Source of the DNA: Pseudoflavonifractor sp. MSJ-37
GTDB taxonomy: Bacteria; Bacillota; Clostridia; Oscillospirales; Oscillospiraceae
Direction: 5' to 3'
DNA length: 32,563 bases
NCBI RefSeq assembly: GCF_018917965.1
Contig: NZ_JAHLPP010000008.1
Coordinates: forward strand, 1-32,563
The translations under genes were made by a program, and so were the position numbers. Below, piece after piece: positions 3,447-32,563 of this stretch; position 1 is the stretch's first letter; every line of letters begins with the position of its first letter. Below the pieces are notes generated by a model. It searched no databases. It saw only the letters and a list, made by a program, of their open reading frames with translations, and was not told the origin of the DNA.

Positions 3447-3450
3447 ATAC

Positions 3451-3534
3451 ATTCCTCCTCGTGTTCGGATAGGACTGGGGCGGAGACGGCCCGAACGGGA
3501 CGGGACCGTCGGACGGAGGGGAGAAAAAATGGGC
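3451..3534 (-). repeat. 84-bp conserved leader of the HHQLHQW gene, copy 1
   Basis: This block upstream of the gene starting at 3446 is almost the same as 23970-24053 upstream of its paralogue. It contains the ribosome site, a CCCG-aa-CGGG hairpin and the 11-bp palindrome CCGTCGGACGG (3506-3516). GACGG and CCGTC segments could pair in two alternative ways. No sigma-A promoter is evident inside it. Confidence 0.7.
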
Positions 3535-3537
3535 ATG

Positions 3538-3566
3538 AAAAAGCGCCCCTCGACGAGAGGGGCGCT
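3538..3566 (-). terminator. Intrinsic terminator after the SDR gene
   Basis: On the minus strand a 10-bp stem (3557-3566 with 3542-3551, loop of 5) is followed by TTTTT (3542-3538). It lies 68 bases beyond the SDR stop and separates the sugar-acid cluster from the HHQLHQW gene on the same strand. Confidence 0.8.
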
Positions 3567-3633
3567 CAGATGGTCGCGTTCGACACGCCGGGAGCGGGCC
3601 GTATGGCCCGCTCTTTGGCGTCCTGCGGCCTTT

Positions 3634-5399: not shown

Positions 5400-5527
5400 G
5401 TCGATGACTCCTCTCATGTCTCCGCGGAGCGGATGACGATTCCGTATCGTGAAACCATTTTCCAAATATGATCCTTCAAAAAAACGGGTCCTTTCTCCGG
5501 GAGGACACCGTTCCCATATACACCCTC

Positions 5528-19661: not shown

Positions 19662-19695
19662 TCGCCCCCCATGTCAACCAAATGTCAACCAACCC

Positions 19696-19739
19696 GAGTC
19701 CTGGAAGCCTTGCGGTGCAAGGCTTCCAGGACTCTTTCG
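19696..19739 (+). terminator. Leader hairpin 1, copy A (also likely gal operon terminator)
   Basis: A perfect 18-bp stem (19696-19713 with 19717-19734) with a 3-nt loop is followed by TTTCG. It stands 34 bases after galM, so it can end the gal transcript. It is also conserved in copy B, where the upstream gene is on the other strand, which implies a role in the SLH leader itself. Confidence 0.75.
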
Positions 19740-19777
19740 TATCGAAATCATATCTCATGTCAACCAAAAGTCAACCA

Positions 19778-19823
19778 GGGGTATTTTTCGGGGGCGTTTT
19801 GCCCCGAAAAATACCCCTTTTTT
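19778..19823 (+). terminator. Leader hairpin 2, copy A (terminator-like, upstream of SLH gene)
   Basis: A stem of about 17 bp (GGGGTATTTTTCGGGG paired with its complement, one bulged G) with loop GTTTT is followed by TTTTTT. It has full intrinsic-terminator form but lies 133 bases upstream of the SLH start, suggesting either attenuation or insulation ahead of a downstream promoter. Confidence 0.78.
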
Positions 19824-19955
19824 CTTGGAATCAGCACGGAAATGGCAGGTGTGAGGGCTGTCGTACCATCGTTCGACCGCACGTTTTCTTCGGAAAAAGT
19901 GCGGGAAAACAGGGGAAAACGCCGCTTTCTCAAATCAAACAAGGAGGAATCCTCA

Positions 19956-22895
19956 ATGAGCAACCTCAAGAAGGTTCTCAGCGTCGGTCTGGCGTCTACC
20001 ATGGTCCTTGGTATGATGACCACCGCCGGTGCTGCGAACTATGACAAGTTCACTGACAAGAACGACATCGAGCACAAGGATGCCGTCTCCATGGTCAGCG
20101 AGCTGGGCATCATCGCCGGCCTCACCAACGGCAGCTATGCCCCCAAGCAGAACATCGACCGCGCGTCCTTCGCCCGTCTGGTCTGTGTCGCCCTGAACGG
20201 CGGCAAGGAGCCCAAGCTGGGCAACCTGAAGACCACCTTCAAGGACACCCAGGGCAACTGGGCTGAGCCCTACATCGCCTACTGCGTGCAGCAGGGCATC
20301 ATCTCCGGCAAGGGCGACAACACCTTCGCTCCCTCCGCCAACGTGACCGGCTCCGAGGCCGCCAAGATGCTCCTCGTCGCCCTCGGTTACAACTGCGCTT
20401 ACGAGAACATCGGCGGCGCCAATTGGCAGACTGCCACCGACGTGCTGGCCAACCAGGCCGGCCTGTACGATGACCTCCAGAGCATGAACACCTCTGAGCC
20501 CCTGACCCGCGACAACGCCGCTCAGATGATCTACAACGCTCTGGACGCCACCAAGGTCAAGTATGAGATGGTCACCGGCGTGTCCACCACTGGTCAGATC
20601 ACCGTGACTCCTCAGCGCGTCAACCTGACCAAGACCGTCAGCGGCACCACCCATGATGTGACCATGCTGGAGGACGCATTCGACGCCGTCAAGGTCGAGG
20701 GTATCGTCGTGGCCAACGAGTTTGCTGATCTGAGCAAGGGCCCCAGCAGCTCCGCTATGGACGAGGGCAAGACCAGCATCAACATCACCAACACCGATGA
20801 GCAGTCTGCCTTCTCCGGTCGTAAGGCTATCTTCAGCGTCTCCACCGGCGAGGAGCATCTGGGCCGCTCTGTCACCCTGTATGTGAAGGACGACTCCTCC
20901 AATTCCTCCAAGGCCACCGTTCTGGGCAACGTGATCCTGTCCGAGGACAACAAGGTCGTCACCGATGCCTCCGGCGATTCCATCTACACGGTGGCGGATG
21001 ACAACGATCTGGACCTGTCCTACAGCAGCGATAAGACTCAGGTCGCGAAGAACTATGGCAATGTGACCGATCTGGCCAAGTCCGCTGCGGACGCGAAGGG
21101 CACCAAGGGCGTGGAGAAGGTCCTCATCGACAACGACGATGACGGCGATGTGGACTACGTCCTGCTGAACACCTTCGAGCTGGGCAAGGTCACCAAGTAC
21201 TCCACCAAGGATGACGGCTCCATCACCATCTCTGCCGGTTCTACCTTCAAGGCCGACAAGAAGAAGGATGTCGTGGGCTTCGACGACGTGAAGAAGGACG
21301 ATCATGTCCTGGTCGCCCTGATCGGCGGCAAGCTGCACGTCCAGAAGGCTGAGACCGTCACTGGCAACCTGACCGGCTACAAGACCGACAGCTCTCTGAC
21401 TGTGAACGGCACCAAGTACGATGTCTCTGATGTGCCCTTCGACACCAGAAATCTGGAGGATGCCTCCAAGTATGGCACGTCCAGCACCCTGAAGAAGGAA
21501 GCGACCTTCTATCTGGACCGCAACGGCCGCGTGGTCGCCGTGGGCGATGCTGAGACCTCCGCCTATGCCTACGCTCTGGTCTGGGGCGTCGAGAAGGGCA
21601 GCTCCATCGGCGACGACAAGGTCAAGCTGACTCTGGAGGATGGCACCACCAAGACCTATGTGGTCGATTCCGACAGCAAGGTCTATGTGAAGGCTGGCGG
21701 AGTTCAGCTGACGGATGGTAACAGCGTTGATGACCGTAATGCCCAGGGCGCTATCGTCTCCTACAGCGTGACCAGCTCCGGCGAGGTCAAGATGGAGTAT
21801 CCTACTGGCAACCACACCGGCGCTAGCGCGACCTTCAATAAGAACAAGACCGCTATTGCCGTCGATGGCAAGACTGTCGGTTATGCGAACAGCAGCACCA
21901 CCTTCTTCTATGTCAGCCTGAAGAGCGGCGGCTCCGCCATCGATAAGGTGAGCACCTACACCGGCTACACCAATGCCCCCAAGGTCACTTCTACCTCTAG
22001 CGTCAGTGTTGCCGAGAACAAGAGCGGCAAGACCGTCGCTGTGGCCTTCACCGGCACCAGCGTGGCCACCAACGTGGATGAGCATCTGTTCGTCTACAAG
22101 GTCGGCTCCATGAACGACGATGACACCATCAGCGCTGATGTCTACCGGAATGGCAAGGACGAGGCTGAGACCATCAAGATCTCCAAGGTCAGCGGCGGCC
22201 TGAGCAAGCTGGAGGACCTGTACGACTACTCCGACAACCTGTTCACCTACAATGTCGACAAGGACGGCAACTACGAGCTGGATACTGTGGCTCGTGCCAA
22301 CTATGTTGCCGGTACCGTGACCAACGATCCCAAGACCACTCTGGTCGTGGACAACGGCACGGAGTACAAGATCCTGTCCTCCACCGTCGTGATCGACAAC
22401 GTGGACGATCCCAGCAAGCCTGACGCGGTCCTGAACGGCGGCGTCGATGAGGGCGACACCGTCATGGCCGTCGTCAACAGCGATGACGAGGCTCTGATGA
22501 TCGTCATCACCAAGAATGGCGTCCTGTATGATGTGGACAGCAGTGATATCACCGATGCCTTCAAGGCCGACGATACTGTCACCGTGTCCGGCAACATCAC
22601 CGGCGATGTGGTCGTGCCCGTGGGCAAGACTCTGGTCCTGACCGGTAAGACCACCTTCAATAACAGCCTGACTGTGACCAAGGACAGCGCCGACAAGCAC
22701 GGCAATCTGGTCCTGGATGCCACTCTGGAGCTGGATGTCAAGAACACCGTCACCTCCATGAACGCCAACGGCTGCATCAAGGCGGAAGAGGGCGCTCTGG
22801 TCAAGAACGAGACCGACTCCACCATCTTCACCGTCCTCGCCGGCGGCGTTGCCACCAGCGCCACCAAGACTTGGGACGGCAGCGCTTGGAACTGA
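19956..22895 (+). CDS. SLH-domain surface (S-layer-like) protein, complete
   Basis: A 979-aa exported protein. ATG 19956 follows AAGGAGGAA; the frame is open upstream only across the hairpin leader and is not conserved in copy B. The signal peptide covers residues 1-26 (LKKVLSVGLASTMVLGMMTTAGA). SLH repeats follow at about 29-80 (AVSMVSELGIIAGLTNGSYAP), 92-145 (WAEPYIAYCVQQGIISG) and a third, weaker one to about 197. The rest is acidic, Thr/Val/Ser-rich and beta-like with no catalytic motif; it ends SATKTWDGSAWN. SLH domains bind secondary cell-wall polymer, so this is probably an S-layer or major surface protein. It is paralogous to the genes at 1-2409 and 32235-32563. Confidence 0.93.
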   Translation: MSNLKKVLSVGLASTMVLGMMTTAGAANYDKFTDKNDIEHKDAVSMVSELGIIAGLTNGSYAPKQNIDRASFARLVCVALNGGKEPKLGNLKTTFKDTQGNWAEPYIAYCVQQGIISGKGDNTFAPSANVTGSEAAKMLLVALGYNCAYENIGGANWQTATDVLANQAGLYDDLQSMNTSEPLTRDNAAQMIYNALDATKVKYEMVTGVSTTGQITVTPQRVNLTKTVSGTTHDVTMLEDAFDAVKVEGIVVANEFADLSKGPSSSAMDEGKTSINITNTDEQSAFSGRKAIFSVSTGEEHLGRSVTLYVKDDSSNSSKATVLGNVILSEDNKVVTDASGDSIYTVADDNDLDLSYSSDKTQVAKNYGNVTDLAKSAADAKGTKGVEKVLIDNDDDGDVDYVLLNTFELGKVTKYSTKDDGSITISAGSTFKADKKKDVVGFDDVKKDDHVLVALIGGKLHVQKAETVTGNLTGYKTDSSLTVNGTKYDVSDVPFDTRNLEDASKYGTSSTLKKEATFYLDRNGRVVAVGDAETSAYAYALVWGVEKGSSIGDDKVKLTLEDGTTKTYVVDSDSKVYVKAGGVQLTDGNSVDDRNAQGAIVSYSVTSSGEVKMEYPTGNHTGASATFNKNKTAIAVDGKTVGYANSSTTFFYVSLKSGGSAIDKVSTYTGYTNAPKVTSTSSVSVAENKSGKTVAVAFTGTSVATNVDEHLFVYKVGSMNDDDTISADVYRNGKDEAETIKISKVSGGLSKLEDLYDYSDNLFTYNVDKDGNYELDTVARANYVAGTVTNDPKTTLVVDNGTEYKILSSTVVIDNVDDPSKPDAVLNGGVDEGDTVMAVVNSDDEALMIVITKNGVLYDVDSSDITDAFKADDTVTVSGNITGDVVVPVGKTLVLTGKTTFNNSLTVTKDSADKHGNLVLDATLELDVKNTVTSMNANGCIKAEEGALVKNETDSTIFTVLAGGVATSATKTWDGSAWN

Positions 22896-22936
22896 TCCTC
22901 TCTCTGAGATGATCGTCCGCTCTGAATGAGCGAACA

Positions 22937-22977
22937 GACCCACCCCCGGGCTCCGGCCCGGGGGTGGGTCATTTTTT
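22937..22977 (+). terminator. Intrinsic terminator of the second SLH gene
   Basis: A perfect 15-bp stem (22937-22951 with 22956-22970), loop TCCG, is followed by ATTTTTT. Its T-run overlaps the stop codon of the convergent gene at 22976. It closely resembles the terminator at 2456-2487, sharing the CACCCCCGGGC core. Confidence 0.92.
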
Positions 22978-23965
22978 ACAGCAGGATCAGACCGTAGTCA
23001 TAGACATGGACTACGGCGCTCTCCCCACAGGCCACGTCCAGCCGGACCGCCATGGGGCCCGCCGGGAGGACCTCGTCCAGCCGGAACATGGACTCCGTGC
23101 AGGGGAGGCCCTCTCCCGGCTCCACCGTGGTCCGCTGTCCGTCCGGGGACATGGGGCGGGCCTGACCGCTCCAGTTCAGCGCCAGCGAGACGGAGCCGCC
23201 GCTGTGCCGCACCCACGCCAGCGCCCCGTGGGAGGCCGGGACGTCCCGCTCCATCGAGGTCATGGTCCCGGAGGCCGCCCCCAGCGGCGTGATCTGGAAG
23301 GAGCCGCCCAGCCCGGCGCCGGAGCGCTCCAGCAGAAGGGCCGAGTTGGTATAGGAGGCCGTCAGGGACACCCGGACCGTGTCGCCCTGCTTCACTGTGC
23401 AGGGCGTGGGGAACGAGAACGTGCAGGAGGCCGTGCCGTTGCCGGAGACCTTGGACGCCTTGTAGACGTAGTCCGTGAAGAGGGCCGTGCCGTTGTGGGT
23501 CAGGGTACAGCGGTAGGTGTTGTCGTGGGCGGAGCTGCCCTTGTTGTGCCACTGGAAGGTCATCCCCGTGAGGATGCCGCCGCCGTCGATCGTCAGGACC
23601 CGGGTCTCCGCGGAAGAGGGGCCGTCGGAGCCGCAGCCCAGGTCCAGGGCGCTGAGCCCAGTCTTGTGGAGGGTGAGACAGCGCCGCCCCAGGATCAGCG
23701 GATCGTCCTTGGCGGCGATACAGCGGTCATCCAGAAAGCCCTCTACGATCATGGCCTTCTTCCAGCCGGTGACCTTGCCCTCATAGTCCCGTTGGAGCAG
23801 GAGATTGTAGAGGTCGTAGCTCAGATCCGGCAGGACCGCCGTCCGGGCCTCCAGCCCGCCCAGCGCCCCGTCGATCTTGGCCAGGTCCTCGTTGAAGTCG
23901 GTCCGCAGGAACGGGTCCCCCGGCTCCCACTGGTGGAGCTGATGATGTTCCGTATAAGTTGCCAT
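22976..23965 (-). CDS. Uncharacterised protein with tail-fibre-like N-terminus (HHQLHQW family), copy 2
   Basis: A 329-aa paralogue of the protein at 2496-3446. ATG 23965 (MATYTEHHQLHQW) follows GAGGAGGAAT at about 7 bp. The N-terminus (GDPFLRTDFNEDLAKIDGALGGLE) is nearly the same as in copy 1, the central region diverges, and the C-terminus (VVHVYDYGLILL) is similar. The body is rich in Ser/Thr/Gly with alternating hydrophobic residues, suggesting beta-sandwich or fibre-like folds. It has no signal peptide or membrane segment. It converges on the second SLH gene and is divergent from spoIIAA, so it may use a promoter within 23966-24130. The function is unknown; a surface or tail-like structural protein is only a guess. 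Confidence 0.77.
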   Translation of the reverse strand: MATYTEHHQLHQWEPGDPFLRTDFNEDLAKIDGALGGLEARTAVLPDLSYDLYNLLLQRDYEGKVTGWKKAMIVEGFLDDRCIAAKDDPLILGRRCLTLHKTGLSALDLGCGSDGPSSAETRVLTIDGGGILTGMTFQWHNKGSSAHDNTYRCTLTHNGTALFTDYVYKASKVSGNGTASCTFSFPTPCTVKQGDTVRVSLTASYTNSALLLERSGAGLGGSFQITPLGAASGTMTSMERDVPASHGALAWVRHSGGSVSLALNWSGQARPMSPDGQRTTVEPGEGLPCTESMFRLDEVLPAGPMAVRLDVACGESAVVHVYDYGLILL

Positions 23966-23969
23966 TCAA

Positions 23970-24053
23970 ATTCCTCCTCGTGTTCGGATAGGGCCGGGGA
24001 GGAGACGGCCCGAACGGGACGGGACCGTCGGACGGAGGGGGGAAACGATGGGG
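23970..24053 (-). repeat. 84-bp conserved leader of the HHQLHQW gene, copy 2
   Basis: Almost the same as 3451-3534, including the CCGTCGGACGG palindrome, although the coding sequences downstream have diverged widely after the first 60 codons. It occupies half of the 165-bp gap between this gene and spoIIAA. Confidence 0.7.
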
Positions 24054-24061
24054 CCGCACCG

Positions 24062-24115
24062 TTCGACCACATCCTCCATCCGGTCTGTGGTATCCTGCCG
24101 TCATACCGAAATTTC
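24062..24115 (+). promoter_or_regulatory. Possible spoIIA control region (weak Spo0A-box and sigma-H-like elements)
   Basis: TTCGACC (24062-24068) matches the complement of the Spo0A box at 6 of 7 positions. ACCGAAATT just before the ribosome site matches the sigma-H -10 consensus except for one base, but the matching -35 is poor. In Bacillus, spoIIA is driven by sigma-H plus Spo0A; the sequence here is only suggestive. Confidence 0.3.
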
Positions 24116-24130
24116 CAGGAGGGACGAGCT

Positions 24131-24436
24131 ATGCCAGTGACGATCACAGGGGCGGGGCGGGACGTGACCGCCGCCCTCAGCGGCGAGGTGGACCACCACC
24201 ACGCCCGGGCCATCATGGACGAACTGGACCGGCTGGCCGACACCGCCCTGCCCCGGCGGCTGACGCTGGACCTGTCCGGGGTGAGCTTCATGGACAGCTC
24301 CGGGATCGCGGTGCTCCTGCGGGCCTATCGCCGGGCACAGGAGCTGGACGGAGCCGTCCGGGTGGTCCATGTGCCGGACCAGGCCTGGAGGGTGCTCCGG
24401 GCCGCCGGTCTGGAGCGCCTGATGACCTTTGAATGA
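24131..24436 (+). CDS. spoIIAA: Anti-sigma F factor antagonist SpoIIAA
   Basis: A 101-aa STAS-domain protein. ATG 24131 follows AGGAGGGA. The phosphorylation motif FMDSSGIAVLL places the regulatory serine at S57, matching Ser58 of B. subtilis SpoIIAA. Unphosphorylated SpoIIAA binds SpoIIAB and frees sigma F in the forespore; SpoIIAB rephosphorylates it. It is first of a three-gene spoIIA operon, with 16 bases to the spoIIAB start. Confidence 0.93.
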   Translation: MPVTITGAGRDVTAALSGEVDHHHARAIMDELDRLADTALPRRLTLDLSGVSFMDSSGIAVLLRAYRRAQELDGAVRVVHVPDQAWRVLRAAGLERLMTFE

Positions 24437-24452
24437 GCGGGGGGATACATAT

Positions 24453-24902
24453 ATGAGACAGAGACCGGAAAACGAGGCCGCGCTGACCTTCCTCAGCCGC
24501 TCCTCCAACGAGGGCTTCGCCCGCACGGCGGCGGCCTGCTTCGCCGCCCAGCTGGATCCCACGCTGGACGAGATCAACGACATCAAGACCGCCGTCAGCG
24601 AGGCGGTCACCAACTGCATCGTCCACGCCTACCCGGACGCCCTTGGAAAGATCCTGCTCCGCCTGCGGATCTACGGCCGGGACACGGTGGAGATCCTGGT
24701 GAAGGACAGCGGCGTGGGCATCCCGGACGTGGACAAGGCCATGGAGCCCCTCTTCACCACCGGGAACGAGGAGCGCTCCGGCATGGGCTTCACCATCATG
24801 GAGAGCTTCATGGACCGGGTGAAGGTCCGTTCCGCCCCGGGGAAGGGCACCGCCGTCACCATGACGAAGCGCCTCGCCCGCCGGATCGGCGGGGGCGCAT
24901 GA
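24453..24902 (+). CDS. spoIIAB: Anti-sigma F factor / serine kinase SpoIIAB
   Basis: A 149-aa GHKL ATPase kinase that holds sigma F and phosphorylates SpoIIAA. The N box is ..SEAVTNCIVHAYP with E50 and N54, the G1 box VKDSGVGIPD (83-92) and the G2 region GMGFTIMESF (110-119). ATG 24453 gives the usual length of about 146 aa; a TTG at 24429 would extend it by eight residues into spoIIAA without a better ribosome site. Its stop overlaps the sigF start (ATGA). Confidence 0.94.
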   Translation: MRQRPENEAALTFLSRSSNEGFARTAAACFAAQLDPTLDEINDIKTAVSEAVTNCIVHAYPDALGKILLRLRIYGRDTVEILVKDSGVGIPDVDKAMEPLFTTGNEERSGMGFTIMESFMDRVKVRSAPGKGTAVTMTKRLARRIGGGA

Positions 24903-25612
24903 GCGTCGCCGACACCCCGGAGCTGCTGGAGGAGGCCCGCAAAGGCGACAACGAGGCCTGCACCCGGATCTTGAACGAGAACGGCGGTCTGATCTGGGGC
25001 ATCGTCCGGCGGTACTACGGCCGGGGCGTGGACCCGGAGGACCTGTACCAGCTGGGCTGTCTGGGCTTTTTGAAGGCGGTGCGGGGGTTCGACCCGGCCT
25101 TCGGGTGCCAGTTCTCCACCTACGCCGTGCCCAAGATCGCCGGGGAGATCCGGCGGTTCCTGCGGGACGACGGGGCCGTGAAGGTGAGCCGGGGCATGAA
25201 GGAGCGCTGGGCCGTCCTGCGGCAGGCCCAGGAGCGCCTGACCGCCGCTCTGGGCCGGGAGCCCTCCCTCTCCGAGCTGGCGGAGGAGACCGGTCTGGAG
25301 CCGGAGGAGATCGCCGCCGCCGAGGAGGCGGCCCAGCCGGTGGCCTCCCTCCAGACGGAGACCGGCGACGGCGTCACGCTGGAGAGCGCCGTGGGGGCCG
25401 AGGGCTTCGAGGAGGCGCTGGTGGAGCGGGAGTCCCTCCGCGCCGCCGTGGCCGCCCTGCCCGACCGGGAGCGGCGGGTGATCCTCCTGCGGTATTTCCG
25501 GAGCTATACCCAGGACCGGACCGCCAAGGTCCTGGGGGTGTCTCAGGTGCAGATTTCCCGCATCGAGAAGCGGGCCATGGAGAGGCTCCGGCATCTGCTG
25601 GAGGAAACATAA
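24899..25612 (+). CDS. sigF: RNA polymerase sporulation sigma factor sigma F (SpoIIAC)
   Basis: A 237-aa sigma-70 family factor, the first forespore-specific sigma. Region 2 includes DLYQLGCLGFLKAVRGFDP and FSTYAVPKIAGEIRRFLRDD (about 47-92). Region 3 is about 105-150. Region 4 has the helix-turn-helix TAKVLGVSQVQISRIEKRAM (about 206-227). The N-terminal part matches sigma F/sigma G; the position after spoIIAA-spoIIAB fixes it as sigma F. It is translationally coupled to spoIIAB and followed by a strong terminator. Confidence 0.94.
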   Translation: MSVADTPELLEEARKGDNEACTRILNENGGLIWGIVRRYYGRGVDPEDLYQLGCLGFLKAVRGFDPAFGCQFSTYAVPKIAGEIRRFLRDDGAVKVSRGMKERWAVLRQAQERLTAALGREPSLSELAEETGLEPEEIAAAEEAAQPVASLQTETGDGVTLESAVGAEGFEEALVERESLRAAVAALPDRERRVILLRYFRSYTQDRTAKVLGVSQVQISRIEKRAMERLRHLLEET

Positions 25613-25616
25613 GACG

Positions 25617-25659
25617 CGCCCGCCCGGCTCCTTACAGATGGGAGCCGGGCGGGCGTTTC
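25617..25659 (+). terminator. Intrinsic terminator of the spoIIA operon
   Basis: A 15-bp perfect GC stem (25617-25631 with 25641-25655) with a 9-nt loop is followed by TTTCG, immediately after the sigF stop. Confidence 0.85.
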
Positions 25660-25668
25660 GCCTATCCC

Positions 25669-25710
25669 AAAACGAGGACAGGCCCCGGCCATATCAGCCG
25701 GAGCCTGTCC
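25669..25710 (-). terminator. Intrinsic terminator after iscU
   Basis: On the minus strand a 14-bp stem with one mismatch (25697-25710 with 25676-25689) is followed by CGTTTTGG. It ends the iscS-iscU transcript back to back with the spoIIA terminator. Confidence 0.8.
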
Positions 25711-25740
25711 CCAAAGAGATAAGAGAGAGTAGAACGCGGA

Positions 25741-26166
25741 TCAATGACAGCAGGGGCACTCGTCCGCCGGGGCGAGATCCTTCTCGTCGTAGCAGATGCC
25801 GTTGCGGTCGTAGTAGTCCTTGACGGCGGCCTTGATGGCCTCCTCCGCCAGGACGGAGCAGTGGATCTTCTGGGCGGGCAGACCGTCCAGGGCCTCCACC
25901 ACGGCCTGATTGGTGAGCTTCACGGCCTCGGTGATGGGCTTGCCCTTCACCAGCTCGGTGGCCATGGAGCTGGTGGCGATGGCGGAGCCGCACCCGAAGG
26001 TGTTGAACTTCACGTCGGTGATGATGCCGTCGGCGACCTTGATATACATCTTCATGATGTCGCCGCACTTGGCGTTGCCCACCTCGCCGATGCCGTCGGC
26101 GTCCTCCATCTTGCCCAGATTGCGGGGGTTCTGGAAGTGGTCCATGACCTTCTCACTATATAGCAT
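25741..26166 (-). CDS. iscU: Iron-sulfur cluster assembly scaffold IscU/NifU
   Basis: A 141-aa scaffold on which Fe-S clusters are built from IscS-derived sulfur. The three conserved cysteines are C34 (AKCGD), C59 (FGCGS) and C103 (KIHCSV), with D36 and H102 as in IscU. ATG 26166 with AGGAG nine bases upstream is chosen over an upstream ATG at 26187. The C-terminus carries an extra CPCCH tail, as in clostridial NifU-like proteins; its role is unclear. It overlaps the iscS end by 11 bases, so the pair is co-translated. Confidence 0.94.
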
Positions 26167-27343
26167 GGTGCTTGACTCCTTTTTCAAGATCTTCCCAGAC
26201 GGGAGACATATCGCGCAGGTAGGCCACCACCTCGGGGACGGCCTTGAGGATCAGGTCCATCTCCTCCTCCGTGTTGTACTCGGAGAGGGAGAGACGCAGG
26301 GAGCCGTGGGCGATCTCGTGGGGCAGGCCCAGAGCCAGCAGGACGTGGCTGGGGTCCAGAGAGCCGGAGGTGCAGGCCGATCCGGAGGAGGCGGCCACGC
26401 CCTTGGCGTCCAGCAGGAGGAGCAGGCTCTCGCCCTCGATGCCCTCGAAGCAGAAGCTCACGTTGCCGGGGAGCCGGCGCGCCCGGTCGCCGTTGAGCCG
26501 GGAGTGGGGGATCTGGGAGAGACCGTCGATCAGCTTGTCCCGCAGGGCGGTCATGTGGGCGGCGTTCTCGTCCAGATGGGAGACGGCCTCCTCCAGCGCG
26601 GCGGCGAGACCGGCGATGCCCGCCAAGTTCTCGGTGCCGGCCCGGCGGCCCCGCTCCTGCGCGCCGCCCTCGATGAAGGTCAGCAGAGGCTGGCCCTTCC
26701 GGCAGTACAGCACGCCCACGCCCTTGGGGCCGTGGAACTTATGGGCGGAGAGGGAGAGCATATCGATGTGGTCCTTGTCCACGTCCACGGGGATGTGGCC
26801 CACGGCCTGCACCGCGTCGGTGTGGAAGGGGACCTTCTTCTCCCGGCAGATGGCGCCGATCTCGGCGATGGGCTGGATAGTGCCCACCTCGTTGTTGGCG
26901 TACATGATCGTGACCAGCGCGGTGTCCTCCCGGATGGCGGCGGCCACGTCCTCGGGCCGGATGAGCCCCAGGGGGCCCACGTCCAGCAGAGTGACCTCGA
27001 AGCCCTCCCGCTCCAACTTCTTCAGGGTGTGGAGGACGGCGTGATGCTCGAAGGCGGAGGAGATGATGTGCCGCTTGCCCTTCTTGGCCCCCAGCAGGGC
27101 GGCGGAGCGGATGGCCTGGTTGTCAGCCTCGCTGCCGCCGGAGGTGAAGTAGATCTCCTCGGGCTTGGCCCCCAGACAGGCCGCGACCTTGGCCCGCTGT
27201 TCCATCAGGGCCTCGGCGGCCCGCTGACCCACGCTGTGGAGGGAGGAGGGATTGCCGTAGATGGTGTCGAAATAGGGCTCCATGGCCCGGATCGCCGTCT
27301 TGCTCATGGCAGTGGTGGCGGCGTTGTCCGCGTAGACGTACAT
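26156..27343 (-). CDS. iscS: Cysteine desulfurase IscS/NifS
   Basis: A 395-aa PLP enzyme that takes sulfur from cysteine to form a persulfide for cluster assembly. PLP lysine K202 lies in [12 protein letters not shown]. The catalytic cysteine C324 in the loop [17 protein letters not shown] is the IscS-type (group I) motif. The N-terminal YADNAATT and EHHAVLHTL motifs also fit. ATG 27343 follows AGGAGG. It has its own strong promoter just downstream of iscR. Confidence 0.95.
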
Positions 27344-27398
27344 AGGTGGATGCCTCCTGTCAGGACTGTCATGTCCGTTATCCTAGCTCGTTGGTATG

Positions 27399-27427
27399 AT
27401 AATAGCACTGATTTTCCTACCTGTCAA
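27399..27427 (-). promoter_or_regulatory. Promoter of iscS-iscU
   Basis: On the minus strand, TTGACA (27427-27422), a 17-bp spacer and TATTAT (27404-27399) form a near-consensus sigma-A promoter. The -35 lies only nine bases past the iscR stop, so iscSU can be controlled separately from iscR. An IscR site is expected nearby, but I did not recognise a consensus. Confidence 0.87.
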
Positions 27428-27435
27428 GTAGAAAT

Positions 27436-27897
27436 TCAATCGTCCTCTGCCGGACCGGCCTTTGCCTCCTCGTTCCCGGCCGTCTCCGGCGGCAGGAGGT
27501 CCTGGAGGGTGCGGCTGTCCAGGAAATGGTTGATGGTGTCATAAAAGTCCTGCCAGAAGCCCATGGACATGCAGTCGCCGAAGAGCTGATGCCGGTGACA
27601 GCATTCCGGTCCCGCCTCCAGGCAGACCGTGGGGGCCAGCTTGCCCTCTGTGGCCCGGAGGATCTCCCCCATGGTGTAGTCCTTGGGCTCCCGGAGCAGG
27701 CGGTAGCCGCCGCTCTTCCCCCGGACGCTCTGGAGGAAGCCGGCCCGGCTGAGCAGGGCGATGATCTGCTCCAGATATTTGACGGTGATATCCTGCCGGG
27801 CGGCGATCTCGTGGAGGGGGATCAGCCCCTCGTCCCGATGGACGGCCAGATCGGTCATGACCCGCAGGGCATAACGGCCCTTAGTAGAAATCTTCAA
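27436..27897 (-). CDS. iscR: Rrf2-family regulator IscR
   Basis: A 153-aa winged-helix regulator of the Rrf2/IscR family. I prefer TTG 27897 (MKISTKGRYALRVM), the standard family N-terminus, with GAGGTGA five bases upstream; a GTG at 27906 would add three residues and overlaps that ribosome site. The helix-turn-helix spans about 28-62 (IAARQDITVKYLEQIIALL, then the wing VRGKSGGYRL). C92, C99/C100 and C109 form the cluster-binding region, close to the C92/C98/C104 pattern of E. coli IscR. Fe-S-bound IscR typically represses isc genes. The acidic C-terminal tail (EEAKAGPAEDD) is poorly conserved. Confidence 0.9.
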   Translation of the reverse strand: MKISTKGRYALRVMTDLAVHRDEGLIPLHEIAARQDITVKYLEQIIALLSRAGFLQSVRGKSGGYRLLREPKDYTMGEILRATEGKLAPTVCLEAGPECCHRHQLFGDCMSMGFWQDFYDTINHFLDSRTLQDLLPPETAGNEEAKAGPAEDD

Positions 27898-27929
27898 AGC
27901 GCTCACCTCGTTCGAGTCGTTCCGCCTGT

Positions 27930-27958
27930 ATTATACTATGATCGCGGTAGGGATTCAA
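27930..27958 (-). promoter_or_regulatory. Promoter of iscR
   Basis: On the minus strand, TTGAAT (27958-27953), a 17-bp spacer and a perfect TATAAT (27935-27930) lie about 33 bases upstream of the iscR start. Confidence 0.87.
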
Positions 27959-27988
27959 CAGGGAAGCTCTGCCTAACCATACGGGCCA

Positions 27989-27995
27989 TTCGACA
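27989..27995 (-). promoter_or_regulatory. Single Spo0A-box match in the iscR/cytidylate-kinase-like divergent region
   Basis: TTCGACA on the plus strand is TGTCGAA on the minus strand, an exact 0A box, 31 bases upstream of the iscR -35. A single 7-mer can occur by chance. Confidence 0.3.
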
Positions 27996-28029
27996 GATCG
28001 TGCAGTTTGTATGGATATCATCGCCCGAG

Positions 28030-28059
28030 TTTGACACCAAATGTCAAAAGTGATAAAAT
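28030..28059 (+). promoter_or_regulatory. Promoter with palindromic operator for the cytidylate-kinase-like gene
   Basis: TTGACA (28031-28036), a 17-bp spacer and TAAAAT (28054-28059) form a strong sigma-A promoter. The -35 is one arm of the inverted repeat TTTGACA-CCAAA-TGTCAAA (28030-28048), so a dimeric regulator could compete with RNA polymerase directly. Confidence 0.82.
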
Positions 28060-28115
28060 GAAACTGCCCTTAGAGGGCGAAACGATCATTCGACTTCCTG
28101 AAGGGAGGTTCCGAT

Positions 28116-28745
28116 ATGGAACATACTGTGATCTGTTTGAGCCGGCAGTCCGGCAGCGGCGGCCGCGAGGTGGGCCGTCGGCTGGCCAAGCGCCTGAACA
28201 TCCCCTTCTATGACTATGAGCTGATCGAGCTGGCCGCGGAGAAGGGCGGCATCCAGCTGGAGCGGCTGGAGAAGGTGGACGAGCGCAAGACCAATCCCTG
28301 GCTCTACCGGAGCCTGTACGAGGGCAACGGCTCCGTGGTGACCCGGGGCGGCTCTCCCAACGACACTCTGTTCTGGCTCCAGAGCGAGGTGGTCCGGGAG
28401 AAGGCGAAGGAGGGGAGCTGTATCTTCGTGGGCCGGTGCGCCGGCTATATCCTGCGCAAGGCGGGCATCCCCCACCACAGCGTGTTCATCTGCGCCCCCT
28501 GGGAGGACCGGATCCGCCGGGCCGGGATGCGGGAACAACTGGACGAGAAGAGCGCCGCCGCCTATGTCCGCAAGGTGGACAAGCAGCGCAAGGGCTATAC
28601 GGAGTACTACACCGGCGAGAGCTGGGGCAAGCCCGAGGACTATGAGCTCTGCGTGAACAGCAGTGTGCTGGGCCTGGACGGCACGGCCGAGCTGCTGGCC
28701 CGCCTGGTCCGAGCCGCCGAGGACGAGGGCATCGAGGGGAAATGA
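28116..28745 (+). CDS. Cytidylate-kinase-like family protein (P-loop NTPase)
   Basis: A 209-aa protein matching the cytidylate-kinase-like family common in Clostridia. The N-terminal phosphate-binding loop SRQSGSGGREVGRRLA (9-24) is followed by LNIPFYDYELIELAA, and later CIFVGRCAGYIL and ICAPWEDRIRRAG resemble the LID/NMP region. ATG 28116 follows GGGAGGTT. True CMP kinase (Cmk) differs, and family members are often of unknown substrate, so nucleotide kinase activity is inferred. It has a strong promoter with an operator-like palindrome and its own terminator. A QSG-type loop replaces the usual GPxGSGKS of Cmk. Confidence 0.85.
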   Translation: MEHTVICLSRQSGSGGREVGRRLAKRLNIPFYDYELIELAAEKGGIQLERLEKVDERKTNPWLYRSLYEGNGSVVTRGGSPNDTLFWLQSEVVREKAKEGSCIFVGRCAGYILRKAGIPHHSVFICAPWEDRIRRAGMREQLDEKSAAAYVRKVDKQRKGYTEYYTGESWGKPEDYELCVNSSVLGLDGTAELLARLVRAAEDEGIEGK

Positions 28746-28775
28746 GCGGCGTCCCGATCGCCAGACACAGAACGA

Positions 28776-28812
28776 GGCCCAGCGGCGCGTTTAGAGCGCC
28801 GCTGGGCCGTTT
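28776..28812 (+). terminator. Intrinsic terminator after the cytidylate-kinase-like gene
   Basis: A perfect 13-bp stem (28776-28788 with 28796-28808) with a 7-nt loop is followed by GTTTC. It lies between two convergent genes. Confidence 0.82.
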
Positions 28813-28841
28813 CATCTATCAGTATGGATGCGGATGGACCG

Positions 28842-29051
28842 TCACAGGGTGAAGTCCTCGTCCTCCAGCCGACTCAGGTCCAGCGCGGCGGGACGGGGCG
28901 GCACCCGCTTGAGGGGGTCGTACCGGAAGGAACGGCAGTGGCCGGCCGGATCCACCACGCCCCGCTTCGCGCAGAGGACAGAGCCCTCCTCCAGCTGGGT
29001 CCCGCGGGCGCAGTAGGCGCACCGGGGTTCGATCTCTTTCTTGAACAGCAT
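28842..29051 (-). CDS. Small four-cysteine protein of unknown function
   Basis: A 69-aa protein with C11-x2-C14, C27 and C39, a spacing that suggests a small zinc-ribbon-like fold. The sequence RCAYCARGTQL and the ending FRYDPLKRVPPRP, LEDEDFTL look conserved rather than accidental, and I recall similar hypothetical proteins in Oscillospiraceae. ATG 29051 follows AGAGGTC. It lies 40 bases downstream of ylbJ on the same strand, so the two are probably co-transcribed. The function is unknown; a metal-binding accessory protein is a guess. Confidence 0.75.
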   Translation of the reverse strand: MLFKKEIEPRCAYCARGTQLEEGSVLCAKRGVVDPAGHCRSFRYDPLKRVPPRPAALDLSRLEDEDFTL

Positions 29052-29091
29052 GGCGTGACCTCTTTTCTCGCTAGTTTCCTCATCTTCCCTA

Positions 29092-30267
29092 TTATATCAC
29101 TCCCGACCGGCGGTGAACAGACCTTTTTCCGGCTGACCGGATCAGGAGGAGCATCCCCAGGAGGAGCCCTCCGGCGGATGCGGCGGAGCCGCTCAGGACC
29201 GCTCCGAAGCCGGGACCGGCGACCATATCGGCCGCCGGTCCGGACAGCAGGGCGGCCGCCGGGGCCTCCAGGGGGACCATCCGTACGGCCAGAGCGGTGA
29301 GGGCGGAGGCCAGGATGCCGTGGAGGGCTTTTCCAGCCAGATAGGTCTTGGCGGACAGGCCGCTCTCCCCCAGGAAAGACAGGACCTGACAGTGGACGGA
29401 GATCCCGGCCCAGCCCAGCAGGAAGGCCGCCATGGACAGCCGTCCGGGGAGCGGCCCGTCCCCGGAGAGGGTCCATACCCCGGAGGAGATCTCCAGCAGA
29501 CCGGTGAGGAGCCGTTCCGCCCAGACCCGGTCCAGGCCCGGCAGAACGCTCAGCGCCCCGGACAGCGCGGCCATCGCCCCGGACAGGCTCAGGAGCCGGA
29601 TCGTCACCGTGAAAAAGACCACGAAGGCGCAGATGTTCAGGGCGGAGGAGGCGGCACTCTGTACCGAGCGGGTCAGAGCGGCCGGGAACCGTTTGGCCTG
29701 GAACTGGGGCCGGACGCCAGTGCCGGCGGCTCGTCCGCCGGCACCCTTGTAAAAGCGGAAGAGGATCCCCACGCAGAGGGACGCCGCTGCGTGGGTCAGA
29801 TAGAGCAGGAGCCCCACACGGCCGCTGGAAAAGACCCCGGTCCCTACCACGCCCAGGATGAAGGCCGGACCGGAGTTGTTGCAGAAGGCCAGGAGCCGCT
29901 CTGCCTCGGTCTTGGAGCACATGCCCTGCTGATAGAGGTCGATGGCGGTCTTGGCCCCCACGGGGTATCCGCCGATGGCCCCCAGTACGAAGGCGGAGGC
30001 ACAGACGCCGTCCACCCGGAAGAGGGGCCGCATGATCCCCTCCAGCATCCGCCCCAGACCGGCGGCCAGCCCCAGCTCCACCACCAGAGCGGACAGGACG
30101 AAGAAGGGGAATAGGGACGGGATGATCACATTATAGCACAGACGGAGCCCCTGCTTGGCGCCCTCCATCGCCTCAGTGGGATAGAGGAGCAGAGCCAGAG
30201 CGGCGCAGAGCACCCCCGCCCCCAGGATCAGATCCCGGGCCCAGGCCCGGGAGGACTGTCGGAACAA
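29092..30267 (-). CDS. ylbJ: Sporulation integral membrane protein YlbJ-like (nucleoside-recognition Gate domain)
   Basis: A 391-aa membrane protein with about eight to ten hydrophobic segments. Two Gate-type blocks are visible: YNVIIPSLFPFFVLSALV (about 44-61), and IGGYPVGAKTAIDLYQQG plus the typical AERLLAFCNNSGPAFILG (about 93-138). B. subtilis YlbJ has the same GYPVGAK and FCNNSGP features, is about 408 aa, and is a sigma-E-controlled protein needed for spore cortex formation. TTG 30267 is taken as start because GGAGGTG lies about seven bases upstream. The spo genes nearby fit a sporulation role. Confidence 0.85.
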   Translation of the reverse strand: MFRQSSRAWARDLILGAGVLCAALALLLYPTEAMEGAKQGLRLCYNVIIPSLFPFFVLSALVVELGLAAGLGRMLEGIMRPLFRVDGVCASAFVLGAIGGYPVGAKTAIDLYQQGMCSKTEAERLLAFCNNSGPAFILGVVGTGVFSSGRVGLLLYLTHAAASLCVGILFRFYKGAGGRAAGTGVRPQFQAKRFPAALTRSVQSAASSALNICAFVVFFTVTIRLLSLSGAMAALSGALSVLPGLDRVWAERLLTGLLEISSGVWTLSGDGPLPGRLSMAAFLLGWAGISVHCQVLSFLGESGLSAKTYLAGKALHGILASALTALAVRMVPLEAPAAALLSGPAADMVAGPGFGAVLSGSAASAGGLLLGMLLLIRSAGKRSVHRRSGVI

Positions 30268-30320
30268 TACGGACCACCTCCCGGGAGAGCCTATGCAGGC
30301 CCAAAGACCGATATGCGGGA

Positions 30321-30356
30321 AGAACGCCTGCCGACGGGATCGTCAGCAGGCGTTCT
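30321..30356. other. Hairpin between the M23 gene and ylbJ
   Basis: A long interrupted stem (AGAACGCCTGC, then GACG, loop GGAT) has no T-run on either strand. It may stabilise or partly terminate the M23 transcript. No other feature was seen in the 104-bp gap. Confidence 0.55.
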
Positions 30357-30371
30357 GCGCATCGAGCCGGC

Positions 30372-31100
30372 TTAGGCAGTAGGGAGATAGTCTGCCGGGT
30401 CTACCGGCTGGCCGTCCTTCAGGAGCGCGAAGTGGAGATGGGGCTCGTCGGCGCTCTCCGCGGCGGCGGTGCCGCCCACGGTCCCCAGAACGTCTCCGGC
30501 CTGGACCTGATCTCCGGTCTCCACCACCGGCTCGGTGGAGAGGTTGGCGTAGACGCTGACCAGCCCGCCGGTGTGCTCCACCGTGACGATGGTCCCCATG
30601 AGCTCGTCCTGCTGGACGGCGTTGACGGTCCCCTCCGCGGCGGCGGCCACCGGAGTGCCCAGCTCCGCAGTCAGGTCGAGGCCCTCATGCGTGCGCCAAT
30701 CGCCCATGGTCTGGCTGTAGGTGAGCGTGTCCGTACTGAAGGGGGTCAGGACCTCTCCCTCTACCGGGCGGACCGAAAAGACAGGAGCCACCGCCTCCGG
30801 GTCCGGCGTCTGGAGCGGACTGGGAGAGGGGGCCGCGGTGGCCGATGGTCTCGGCCGGGCCGTGGGTCGGGGCGTCGCGCTGACCTGCGGCTTCTGAGGC
30901 GTGACCGAACGTTCTTTCGGTGTCGGCCGGACGGTGACGGTGACCGGCTCGACCACCGGGGCCTCCGCCTGTGCGGAAGATCCATCGGTGAAAAGATGAT
31001 AGCCCGAGATCCCGAGCGCTGCCGCGCACAGGAGAAGGGCTATGTAGAAGCCCTTCTCCTCCAGCATGGTGCCGAGTCGTTCCAGGAATGGTCGTTTCAT
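30372..31100 (-). CDS. spoIIQ: SpoIIQ-like membrane-anchored M23 (LytM) family protein
   Basis: A 242-aa protein. ATG 31100 follows GGAGGT. There is a single membrane segment at about 18-33, a Pro/Thr/Ser/Arg-rich linker (55-100) and a LytM domain from about 105 to the end. The zinc ligands are present: H138 and D142 (HEGLD), H221/H223 (HLHF). At the usual catalytic-His position the sequence reads YANL with N186 where active LytM enzymes have YxHL. Forespore SpoIIQ, partner of the mother-cell SpoIIIA channel, is a LytM-fold protein with altered active residues, and the TMGDWRTHEG segment is SpoIIQ-like. The location near ylbJ and spoIIA agrees. A non-sporulation M23 regulator is possible. Confidence 0.72.
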   Translation of the reverse strand: MKRPFLERLGTMLEEKGFYIALLLCAAALGISGYHLFTDGSSAQAEAPVVEPVTVTVRPTPKERSVTPQKPQVSATPRPTARPRPSATAAPSPSPLQTPDPEAVAPVFSVRPVEGEVLTPFSTDTLTYSQTMGDWRTHEGLDLTAELGTPVAAAAEGTVNAVQQDELMGTIVTVEHTGGLVSVYANLSTEPVVETGDQVQAGDVLGTVGGTAAAESADEPHLHFALLKDGQPVDPADYLPTA

Positions 31101-31120
31101 GTGTGCTGCACCTCCGGACC

Positions 31121-31150
31121 TATCATTGCCCGGAGGCTGGAGGATCATAC
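31121..31150 (-). promoter_or_regulatory. Possible sigma-F-type promoter of the SpoIIQ-like gene
   Basis: On the minus strand, GTATG (31150-31146), a 15-bp spacer and GGCAATGATA (31130-31121) match the sigma-F pattern GYWTA/GGnrAnAnTr with one mismatch in each element. The distance to the ribosome site is very short, which weakens it. TATGAT at about 31149-31144 could instead be a sigma-A -10 with a poor -35. Confidence 0.3.
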
Positions 31151-31174
31151 CTGATCCATCCTGTTTTTCCAGAT

Positions 31175-31207
31175 AAAAAGACCGCCGTTCCGGGAGGAAC
31201 GACGGTC
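31175..31207 (-). terminator. Intrinsic terminator after the 167-aa protein gene
   Basis: On the minus strand a 12-bp stem with one G-T pair (31196-31207 with 31180-31191, loop of 4) is followed by TTTTTAT. It begins 13 bases after the stop codon. Confidence 0.88.
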
Positions 31208-31219
31208 GATGGGATCGGT

Positions 31220-31723
31220 TCAGCGCTCCATGACGCCGACCACCGCAAAGCGGCTACCGGTCTTCATGGGACCGGTGAGACGGAGCGGCCTGGAAGGCGC
31301 ATCGGGTCCGGTCATAGAGATGGACGCCTCAGGCCCGGAGTAGACCGTGGCCTGGAGCGGCTTGTCCGGCTCTCTGCGGAGGAAGAGCGCATTCATATCC
31401 TGAGCGGCAGAGACGACCGCCAGATGCTCCTTGCGGACCAGACCGGAAGCGGTCGGCACATAGTGGTAGGCGTCCTCCCCCAGATCCATGACCAGCTGGC
31501 CGGCGGGAGCGCCCTTGGGAGGCGTATAGGAGAACAGCACAGCAGTATACTGCGTCCAGTCCTTGGCGGCGAGATCGAACTCCAGCTCATCCCGGTCCTC
31601 GGACAGCGTGAACTCGTACAGGATGGCCATGGCGGCTTTTCCAGTGGATCTATCCAAGAGCTTGTCGATCACCGTGTGGTCTCCAGCCGTGGAGAGACCG
31701 GTGTTTTCTATCTTTTCCGGCAT
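31220..31723 (-). CDS. Uncharacterised 167-aa protein with Spo0A-box promoter region
   Basis: I do not recognise a family. ATG 31723 follows GGGAGGAT. There is no signal peptide or transmembrane segment. The composition (LYEFTLSEDRDELEFDL, YTAVLFSYTPPKG, SGPEASISMTG) suggests alternating beta strands, as in small structural or regulatory proteins. It has a clear sigma-A promoter, three tandem Spo0A boxes upstream and its own terminator, so it is a real, regulated single gene. It sits between the SpoIIQ-like gene and the third SLH gene. A link to sporulation entry or to the surface-protein locus is inference only. Confidence 0.78.
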   Translation of the reverse strand: MPEKIENTGLSTAGDHTVIDKLLDRSTGKAAMAILYEFTLSEDRDELEFDLAAKDWTQYTAVLFSYTPPKGAPAGQLVMDLGEDAYHYVPTASGLVRKEHLAVVSAAQDMNALFLRREPDKPLQATVYSGPEASISMTGPDAPSRPLRLTGPMKTGSRFAVVGVMER

Positions 31724-31809
31724 GGGATCCTCCCTCTCTATGTCTAACGATATATGGAATGGAGCGAGCCGTCATCGATTCCTGCGGACTGCCCTATCAA
31801 CTGATAGAT

Positions 31810-31838
31810 AGTATAGCAGATTCCTTCGGTGATTTCAA
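31810..31838 (-). promoter_or_regulatory. Sigma-A promoter of the 167-aa protein gene
   Basis: On the minus strand, TTGAAA (31838-31833), a 17-bp spacer and TATACT (31815-31810) give a good vegetative promoter about 87 bases upstream of the start codon. Confidence 0.83.
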
Positions 31839-31880
31839 TGTTATCGTGTTTATATCTAAAAATCGCTGTTTTTTCATTTT

Positions 31881-31907
31881 TTCGACACGATTCGACAATA
31901 TTCGACA
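31881..31907 (-). promoter_or_regulatory. Three tandem Spo0A boxes at exact 10-bp spacing
   Basis: TTCGACA occurs at 31881-31887, 31891-31897 and 31901-31907; on the minus strand each reads TGTCGAA, the exact Spo0A (0A) box. A 10-bp centre-to-centre spacing is that of tandem boxes bound by a Spo0A dimer on one face of DNA. The array lies about 43 bp upstream of the -35 of the minus-strand gene and 327 bp upstream of the third SLH gene. Confidence 0.75.
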
Positions 31908-31975
31908 AAACGCGCCGGACCAGGTGGTCAGAGAGCGGTCTCGTCCCCCCATGTCAACCAAATGTCAACCAGCCT

Positions 31976-32018
31976 GAGTCCTGGAAGCCTTGCGGCGCAA
32001 GGCTTCCAGGACTCTTTC
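31976..32018 (+). other. Leader hairpin 1, copy B
   Basis: A perfect 18-bp stem with a 3-nt loop, followed by TTTCG. The gene upstream is on the opposite strand, so this hairpin does not serve as the terminator of an adjacent plus-strand gene. Confidence 0.75.
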
Positions 32019-32057
32019 GTATCGAAATCATATCTCATGTCAACCAAAAGTCAACCA

Positions 32058-32099
32058 GGGGTATTTTTCGGGGCGTTTTGCCCCGAAAAATACCCCTTT
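32058..32099 (+). terminator. Leader hairpin 2, copy B (terminator-like)
   Basis: A perfect 17-bp stem (32058-32074 with 32080-32096) with loop GTTTT is followed by a shorter T-run (CCTTTCC) than in copy A. It lies 135 bases upstream of the SLH start. Confidence 0.75.
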
Positions 32100-32234
32100 C
32101 CTCTTGAAAACAGTACGGAAATGGCAGGTGTGAGGGCTGTCGTACCATCGTTCGACCGCACGTTTTCTTCGGAAAAAGTGCGGGAAAACGGGGGAAAACG
32201 CCGCTTTCTCAAATCAAACAAGGAGGAATCCTCA

Positions 32235-32563
32235 ATGAGCAACCTCAAGAAGGTTCTCAGCGTCGGTCTGGCGTCTACCATGGTCATGGGCATGATGACC
32301 ACCGCCGGTGCTGCGAGCTACGAGAAGTTCACTGACAAGGCCGACATCGAGCACAAGGATGCCGTGTCCATGGTCAGTGAGCTGGGCATCATCGCCGGCC
32401 TCACCAACGGCACCTATGCCCCCAAGCAGAACATCGACCGCGCGTCCTTCGCGCGCCTGGTCTGTGTCGCCCTGAACGGCGGCAAGGAGCCCAACCTGGG
32501 CAACCTGAAGACCAGCTTCACCGACACCCAGGGCCACTGGGCGGAGAAGTACATCGCCTACTG
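32235..32563 (+). CDS. SLH-domain surface protein, third copy, 3' truncated by window edge
   Basis: The first 109 codons of an SLH protein. ATG 32235 follows AAGGAGGAA. The signal peptide (1-26) and first SLH repeat differ from the copy at 19956 at only about ten positions (for example N28S, D30E, N36A, S60T, K87N, P105K). The second SLH repeat begins as the window ends (HWAEKYIAY). The role in cell-wall anchoring is as for the other copies, and the C-terminal function cannot be seen. Confidence 0.92.
   Translation, partial: MSNLKKVLSVGLASTMVMGMMTTAGAASYEKFTDKADIEHKDAVSMVSELGIIAGLTNGTYAPKQNIDRASFARLVCVALNGGKEPNLGNLKTSFTDTQGHWAEKYIAY

Follow-up and report, generated by a model that had tools for sequence, protein, structure and literature searches.

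The window analysed here is the whole of contig C8 (32,563 bp) of Pseudoflavonifractor sp. MSJ-37, a draft genome in 18 contigs. It carries two copies of a leader, each directly ahead of the start of a gene with SLH (S-layer homology) domains. We consider it probable that such leaders belong to an S-layer switch in which a domesticated integrase of the arm-binding kind connects one promoter half-site with one of many silent SLH genes. With about equal confidence we propose that the leaders of the window represent the silent-copy (S) half-site and not the expression site. In the following, C denotes contigs of MSJ-37, G other genomes and L individual loci.

Two upstream types and their junction

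The two leader copies (291 and 290 bp) are 97% identical (E 1.9e-135), and the match runs on to the end of the window (19665-20284 versus 31945-32563, 94.8% over 620 bp), i.e., through the signal peptide and the first SLH repeat (PF00395). An earlier note on this DNA had described this near base-for-base match and its extension. It had also called the upstream genes unrelated; indeed, copy a follows an aldose epimerase gene (PF01263) and copy b an open reading frame (ORF) without Pfam match. A genome search with the leader, as the note had proposed, yielded further copies. MSJ-37 holds four near-full and two partial leaders, each preceding an SLH gene start. A solitary copy of one leader hairpin (hairpin 2, 85%) at C1:257365-257428 has no SLH gene start after it. 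Among 60 relatives the leader sequence was matched only in MSJ-37 itself, G004, and G027, weakly in the latter two, and the phage collection contained no match. A protein scan of the contig collection gave a single weak relative with 40% identity, on an uncultured Oscillospiraceae contig. The expectation that close relatives with the same SLH genes carry the leader thus failed for the sequence and held for the architecture. The architecture, rather than the leader sequence, is what other species share.

The upstream regions of the closest SLH genes in relatives of the same genus are of the same two types as in MSJ-37, S and P. The S type consists of paired TGTCWACC direct repeats at 11-bp spacing and a hairpin, with no promoter match on the forward strand. 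The P type has a sigma-70 promoter. The P half-site of MSJ-37 is located at C11:5460-5514, with TTGACG-17-TAAGAT (5460-5488) directly before a heptamer. S and P types are unlike over the entire upstream part. The earlier note took leader and SLH gene to have moved or duplicated as one unit. This view has to be abandoned because the same 200-bp gene start is found behind either upstream type, with the break at the heptamer. Its proposal that conservation implies function or recent gene conversion, as in antigenic-variation expression systems, is upheld as regards function and that comparison, but the leader appears to be of the silent-copy type and the expression site would be the sequence upstream on C11.

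A sample of 150 genomes of the family was searched, over whole genomes, for the exact repeat pair and the P pattern. The repeat pair gave 55 hits in seven genomes (MSJ-37, G023, G077, G118, G120, G147, and G159, the S-bearing genomes); a reversed-pattern control gave six hits, none in those seven. In MSJ-37 all nine repeat pairs lie within SLH leaders; elsewhere, adjoining SLH genes were checked in the fetched loci only. The P pattern occurs once each in five genomes (MSJ-37, G077, G120, G159, and G122), four of them S-bearing; G122 has no exact repeat pair. Several homologous SLH genes with one promoter-bearing copy are present in MSJ-37, G077, G120, and G159, the last being a single contig of 2.9 Mb with one P and six S genes intact. 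G004, G006, G008, and G009 have one P-type gene each, as judged among the SLH genes examined and not by a whole-genome search. A regular expression for promoters matched six of eight P sites; in G006 and G008 TTGACG is accompanied by a TAAACT-like second box (by eye). G001, G002, and G005, which have no integrase of the kind described below, retain a TTGACS promoter at 91-92 bp ahead of the ATG with neither core nor repeats there, and the whole genomes of G001 and G005 contain no repeat pair. A scan of viral contigs for the repeat returned 59 stretches. Most have just one pair, in dissimilar surroundings, and outside the family the repeat by itself is therefore no specific marker; a pair followed by a core is present in L219, L228, L231, and L253. 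A TTACAG-like repeat, again at 11-bp spacing, was seen by eye before P promoters (e.g., L020:5400-5500) and also in G002 and G005; perhaps it is a regulator box.

The S leaders might themselves be separately regulated promoters. Direct repeats at 11-bp spacing resemble boxes of the OmpR/PhoB type, and SLH genes in L139, L141, L261, and L262 have response-regulator-like genes (by eye) nearby. In that case a response regulator or another transcription factor would recognise the repeats, and every SLH gene would be turned on under a condition of its own. We regard this as distinctly improbable. The promoter and hairpin scan, which covered copy a (19560-20060) and not copy b, found no sigma-70-like match on the forward strand of the leader; the sole match is on the minus strand (19774-19747). 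Among the S leaders scanned, the regular expression gave a single hit, at -301 in G006, ahead of the repeats. Further, two terminator-like hairpins separate repeats and gene, and neither the shared heptamer nor the integrase is explained.

Both upstream types join their gene at one heptamer, which in MSJ-37 is GTCGTAC in six of six copies. The P copy on C11 and the S copy C9b are unlike before it and identical from the heptamer to the contig ends (200 of 200 bp). In the remaining pairs of copies, 6-13 differences were counted over the 200-206 bp that begin with the heptamer. The identity of C9b and C11 would fit a culture in which one gene exists with both upstream halves, a recent exchange, or a duplication. 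When S and P sites of the same genome are compared (21 pairs), mean identity is 0.42 in the 22 bp upstream, 0.98 in the heptamer, and 0.62 in the 23 bp downstream; between genomes the respective values are 0.49, 0.77, and 0.29. The heptamer is GTTATGC in G159 (7/7), GTTATAC in G004 (3/3) and G120 (3/3), GTTGTCC in G023 (2/2), GTTGTAC in G006 (2/2), G008 (3/4), G009 (2/3), and G118 (4/4), and GTCATAC in G147 (2/2) and in both the S and P sites of G077. In L219 and L231 the core is, from the sequence, the centre of an inverted repeat.

The spacing between repeats and core is constant. In 24 of 27 S sites the heptamer lies 99-101 bp from the second repeat pair (DR2), a measurement favoured by the picking of heptamers, which gave a bonus for lying ~100 bp from DR2; the other three sites have 99-100 bp once one mismatch in DR2 is allowed. 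A bonus-free core search gave 94-95 bp from DR2 to a GGGG-like start, equivalent to 99-100 bp to the heptamer, wherever a core was found beside an exact DR2 at the same place; the copies of MSJ-37 were measured directly. Nine of ten further sites were testable and all nine have 99-100 bp, the check being limited to 95-105 bp from the last repeat with a chance of ~0.043 per site for uniform bases. The distance from heptamer to ATG in the same S sites is variable (44 to 141 bp). That the geometry stays constant while the sequence changes suggests a protein complex assembled on the DNA.

Could RecA-dependent homologous recombination or gene conversion keep the leaders alike and swap the genes behind one promoter, as in Campylobacter fetus, with integrase and repeats serving otherwise? 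Hundreds of base pairs are common to the copies, the identity of C9b and C11 spans the entire shared stretch, and leaders are much more alike within a genome than between species, which all agrees with such a process. Yet it needs neither a heptamer with an AAGGG-like flank in silent copies nor repeats at a constant 99-101 bp from that heptamer, nor the co-occurrence with one integrase. Further, C7 and C9b are alike before the heptamer except for one indel, differ just after it, and then converge again. We therefore consider RecA-driven exchange unlikely. That SLH genes and leaders were simply duplicated together in recent times, with contigs broken there and no switching, is more improbable still. 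It accords with a draft genome in which contigs end in a repeat, but not with an architecture which is kept in other genera in unrelated sequence and at constant spacing, nor with the intact gene set on the single contig of G159.

An integrase that accompanies the repeats

MSJ-37 has a lone lambda-type tyrosine recombinase of 377 aa (C1:364282-365412, minus strand). Among the tyrosine recombinases gathered, one cluster of seven, to which it belongs, comprises S-bearing genomes only. In the family sample the integrase is present in nine of 150 genomes at a cut of at least 59% identity, which was chosen once the scores were known. Six of the nine also have the repeats (MSJ-37, G023, G118, G120, G147, and G159), three have the integrase only and one further genome has the repeats only (Fisher p 4e-8; kinship is ignored in this and the following test). 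Within the genus the integrase is found at 76% identity or more in MSJ-37, G004, G006, G007, G008, and G009, i.e., in six of six S-bearing members, whereas the best match in G001, G002, G003, and G005 reaches only 39%. The corresponding genus table (p 0.005) enters G002 and G003 as S-free, although the whole-genome search was carried out only in G001 and G005, G002 was classed by the SLH gene nearest to the query, and for G003 no judgement was made. As switch enzymes, Xer-like recombinases were dismissed since they are also present in S-free genomes. In G009 (L352) a serine-recombinase-like protein (by eye) lies near the integrase; no search aimed at serine recombinases was made.

In an alignment of 12 orthologues (G147 and G164 were left out) the catalytic domain PF00589 and the SAM-like core-binding domain PF14659 match all 12. 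R208, K243, K246, H321, R324, H347, and Y357 are invariant; we take these to be the catalytic R, K, H-x-x-R, H, and Y. About 65 conserved residues precede the core-binding domain. The profile matches lambda Int (1z1g, E 9.6e-7) and Tn1549 Int. The alignment to lambda Int takes in its residues 37-224 and begins at residue 31. The 1928 phage and 356 plasmid records matched by the integrase are all below 60% identity, and the best 15 of the phage and best 10 of the plasmid relatives have at most 31%. A protein scan of the contig collection gave a single weak relative with 40% identity, on an uncultured Oscillospiraceae contig. The neighbours of the integrase gene look like housekeeping genes (by eye), the same neighbour pair being present in MSJ-37, G006, G008, G009, and G164, and by eye no element of the phage or integrative and conjugative element (ICE) type was recognised around it.

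Several observations weigh against an integrase-driven switch. In the 14 integrase loci viewed, the gene adjoins no S or P site, and neither repeat nor core was found. The arm-binding domain PF14657 was matched in only three of 12 orthologues, below the cut-off (best E 0.051). G062, G088, and G164 carry the integrase without an exact repeat pair; conversely, G077, a genome 70% complete, carries repeats without the integrase. The S-bearing genomes G023, G118, and G147 show no P site in the whole-genome search with the exact pattern, and one heptamer deviates in each of G008 and G009. Lastly, the sites of the tandem array in G159 are directly repeated, such that an exchange would delete genes; switching there would require copying or an intermolecular reaction.

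The proposed switch in its genomic setting

On balance, we favour the integrase-driven switch, which may operate as follows. The P half-site would drive the one SLH gene to which it is linked at the 7-bp core. All other SLH genes would be linked to an S half-site, marked by the paired direct repeats and insulated by the terminator-like hairpins, which would stop read-through into the silent genes. The direct repeats would be the arm sites to which the integrase binds, and the enzyme would connect an S site, through its repeats and core, with the P-site core. By strand exchange at the heptamer the two upstream halves, P and S, would trade their genes, with a change of the presumed S-layer protein. 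Where S and P sites are oppositely oriented (G006, G008, G009, and G120), the DNA between them would be inverted and a new gene placed behind the promoter.

In many gut Clostridia the outermost coat is an S-layer, which phages and antibodies probably target. The switch proposed for these bacteria comes with a named enzyme, a 7-bp site, repeats, and one promoter, which opens the question to direct tests. If it exists, an integrase of a kind otherwise tied to mobile elements serves host gene regulation. It would also account for the breaks at S-layer genes in short-read assemblies of these genomes. In MSJ-37, four contigs stop within the shared SLH 5' region (C7, C9, C11, and the right end of C8), and headless SLH bodies are present at the left end of C8 and on C13. 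As the window is the whole contig, the gene of copy b is truncated by the contig end. Five small contigs, C14-C18, consist of N throughout.

Terminase-like genes adjoin S-type SLH cassettes or repeats in L219, L228, L268 (G120), and L364 (G077); the identification is by PF03237 and phrog_2 in L219 and by eye in the other three. Based on S-type SLH genes beside such genes in G120, G077, and the viral contigs L219 and L228, prophages might add silent S-layer cassettes, the phage-type integrase having become fixed in the chromosome with scattered S-layer genes as its substrates. We offer this as a doubtful possibility. If it were true, lysogeny could supply coats which the host integrase plugs into a single promoter.

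The features of the window and the further leader copies are compiled below.

Table 1. Features of the window (C8) and leader copies on other contigs of MSJ-37.
Feature	Position	Strand	Basis or remark
S-type (presumably silent) leader, copy a	19665..19955	+	pairwise match
Direct-repeat pair DR1 (GTCAACCAAATGTCAACC), putative arm site	19673..19690	+	repeat search
Hairpin 1, 18 pairs, terminator-like, between DR1 and DR2	19696..19734	+	hairpin scan
Direct-repeat pair DR2 (GTCAACCAAAAGTCAACC), putative arm site	19759..19776	+	repeat search
Hairpin 2, 17 pairs, T tail, terminator-like	19777..19818	+	hairpin scan
Core heptamer GTCGTAC, proposed crossover region	19860..19866	+	101 bp from DR2 start, 96 bp before ATG
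5' untranslated region with ribosome-binding site	19867..19955	+	
SLH (S-layer type) gene, 979 aa, two PF00395 stretches	19956..22895	+	ATG at 19956
S-type leader, copy b	31945..32234	+	pairwise match
DR1 of copy b	31953..31970	+	
Hairpin 1 of copy b	31976..32014	+	match to copy a
DR2 of copy b	32039..32056	+	
Hairpin 2 of copy b	32057..32097	+	match to copy a
Core heptamer GTCGTAC of copy b	32139..32145	+	
SLH gene, 5' end only	32235..32563	+	truncated by contig end
SLH gene body without 5' end	1..2409	+	truncated by contig start
Aldose epimerase (PF01263), upstream of copy a	18624-19661	+	
ORF upstream of copy b	31220-31723	-	no Pfam match
LHQW-family gene, convergent partner of SLH gene 19956..22895	22976..23965	-	
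LHQW-family gene, convergent partner of left-end SLH gene	2496..3656	-	
Further leader copy, full	C9:24514		genome search
Further leader copy, leader positions 9-291	C9:4464		genome search
Further leader copy, leader positions 92-202 plus last 24 bp	C7:164-273	-	
Further leader copy, leader positions 190-291 only	C11:5502		

Hairpin 2 is also located at C9:4568-4608 and C7:212-252 and was not seen after DR2 in the leaders of relatives which were inspected. Its loop is inverted between copies, reading CGTTTTG in C8a, C8b, and C9b and CAAAACG in C9a and C7. Rfam at the gathering threshold returned no family and ARAGORN no tRNA in the window; a known riboswitch or tRNA-linked site was therefore rejected as the identity of the leader.

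The SLH bodies diverge: that of copy a shares 57% identity with C9a, 46% with C13, and 41% with the gene at the left end. The solved chain nearest to the SLH proteins of the window is Sap-SLH of Bacillus anthracis. A short SLH copy without leader (208-aa frame, 69% identical) is present at C1:327820-328278 (minus strand). A convergent, unnamed family (NYxLHQW...FLRTDFN) follows SLH genes in the window, L104, L137-L139, L261, and L262; four members were scanned and gave no Pfam match above cut-off and no PHROG match.

Comparison with known systems

In the sap system of Campylobacter fetus exchange is RecA-dependent, proceeds through long shared 5' regions, and is confined to one locus. It resembles the present case in having S-layer homologues behind one promoter. 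Unlike sap, MSJ-37 has an integrase of the arm-binding type, repeats with a 7-bp core, and genes spread over several contigs; the proteins differ as well, being SLH-anchored (PF00395) and from a Gram-positive family.

A further parallel is offered by vpma of Mycoplasma agalactiae and vsp of M. bovis with the tyrosine recombinase Xer1. The reports (PMC2268961, PMC5634654) describe a unique promoter, silent genes, and recombination sites in the 5' untranslated region, features which would recur here. In vpma the recombinase gene is, according to PMC2268961, in the vicinity of the gene locus, whereas the integrase-like enzyme here is in an unrelated housekeeping neighbourhood away from the SLH sites. 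Further, the presumed silent sites are marked by pairs of repeats at ~100 bp from the core, and the products are SLH proteins, not lipoproteins.

With cwpV of Clostridioides difficile, switched by RecV, the proposed system has in common a clostridial cell-wall protein, a tyrosine recombinase, and a terminator hairpin; in cwpV, a phase-variable gene, the hairpin acts in the off state (PMC2784873). However, in cwpV a segment of 195 bp between 21-bp inverted repeats is inverted ahead of a single gene, and the promoter is fixed outside this segment, as opposed to one promoter half and many genes.

The enzyme itself is akin to IntTn916 and lambda Int, with catalytic and core-binding domains and profile matches to lambda Int and Tn1549 Int. 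Direct repeats at a fixed distance from the core, putative arm sites, would be a further lambda-type feature. The arm-binding domain is tied to phage and ICE mobility in PMC8138268; unlike in these elements, no mobile element was recognised by eye around the integrase gene. Searches of an open-access library, which excludes most subscription papers, listed no description of such a switch in these bacteria. The logic of the switch is already known from sap and vpma; its machinery, as read from the genomes, appears to be different.

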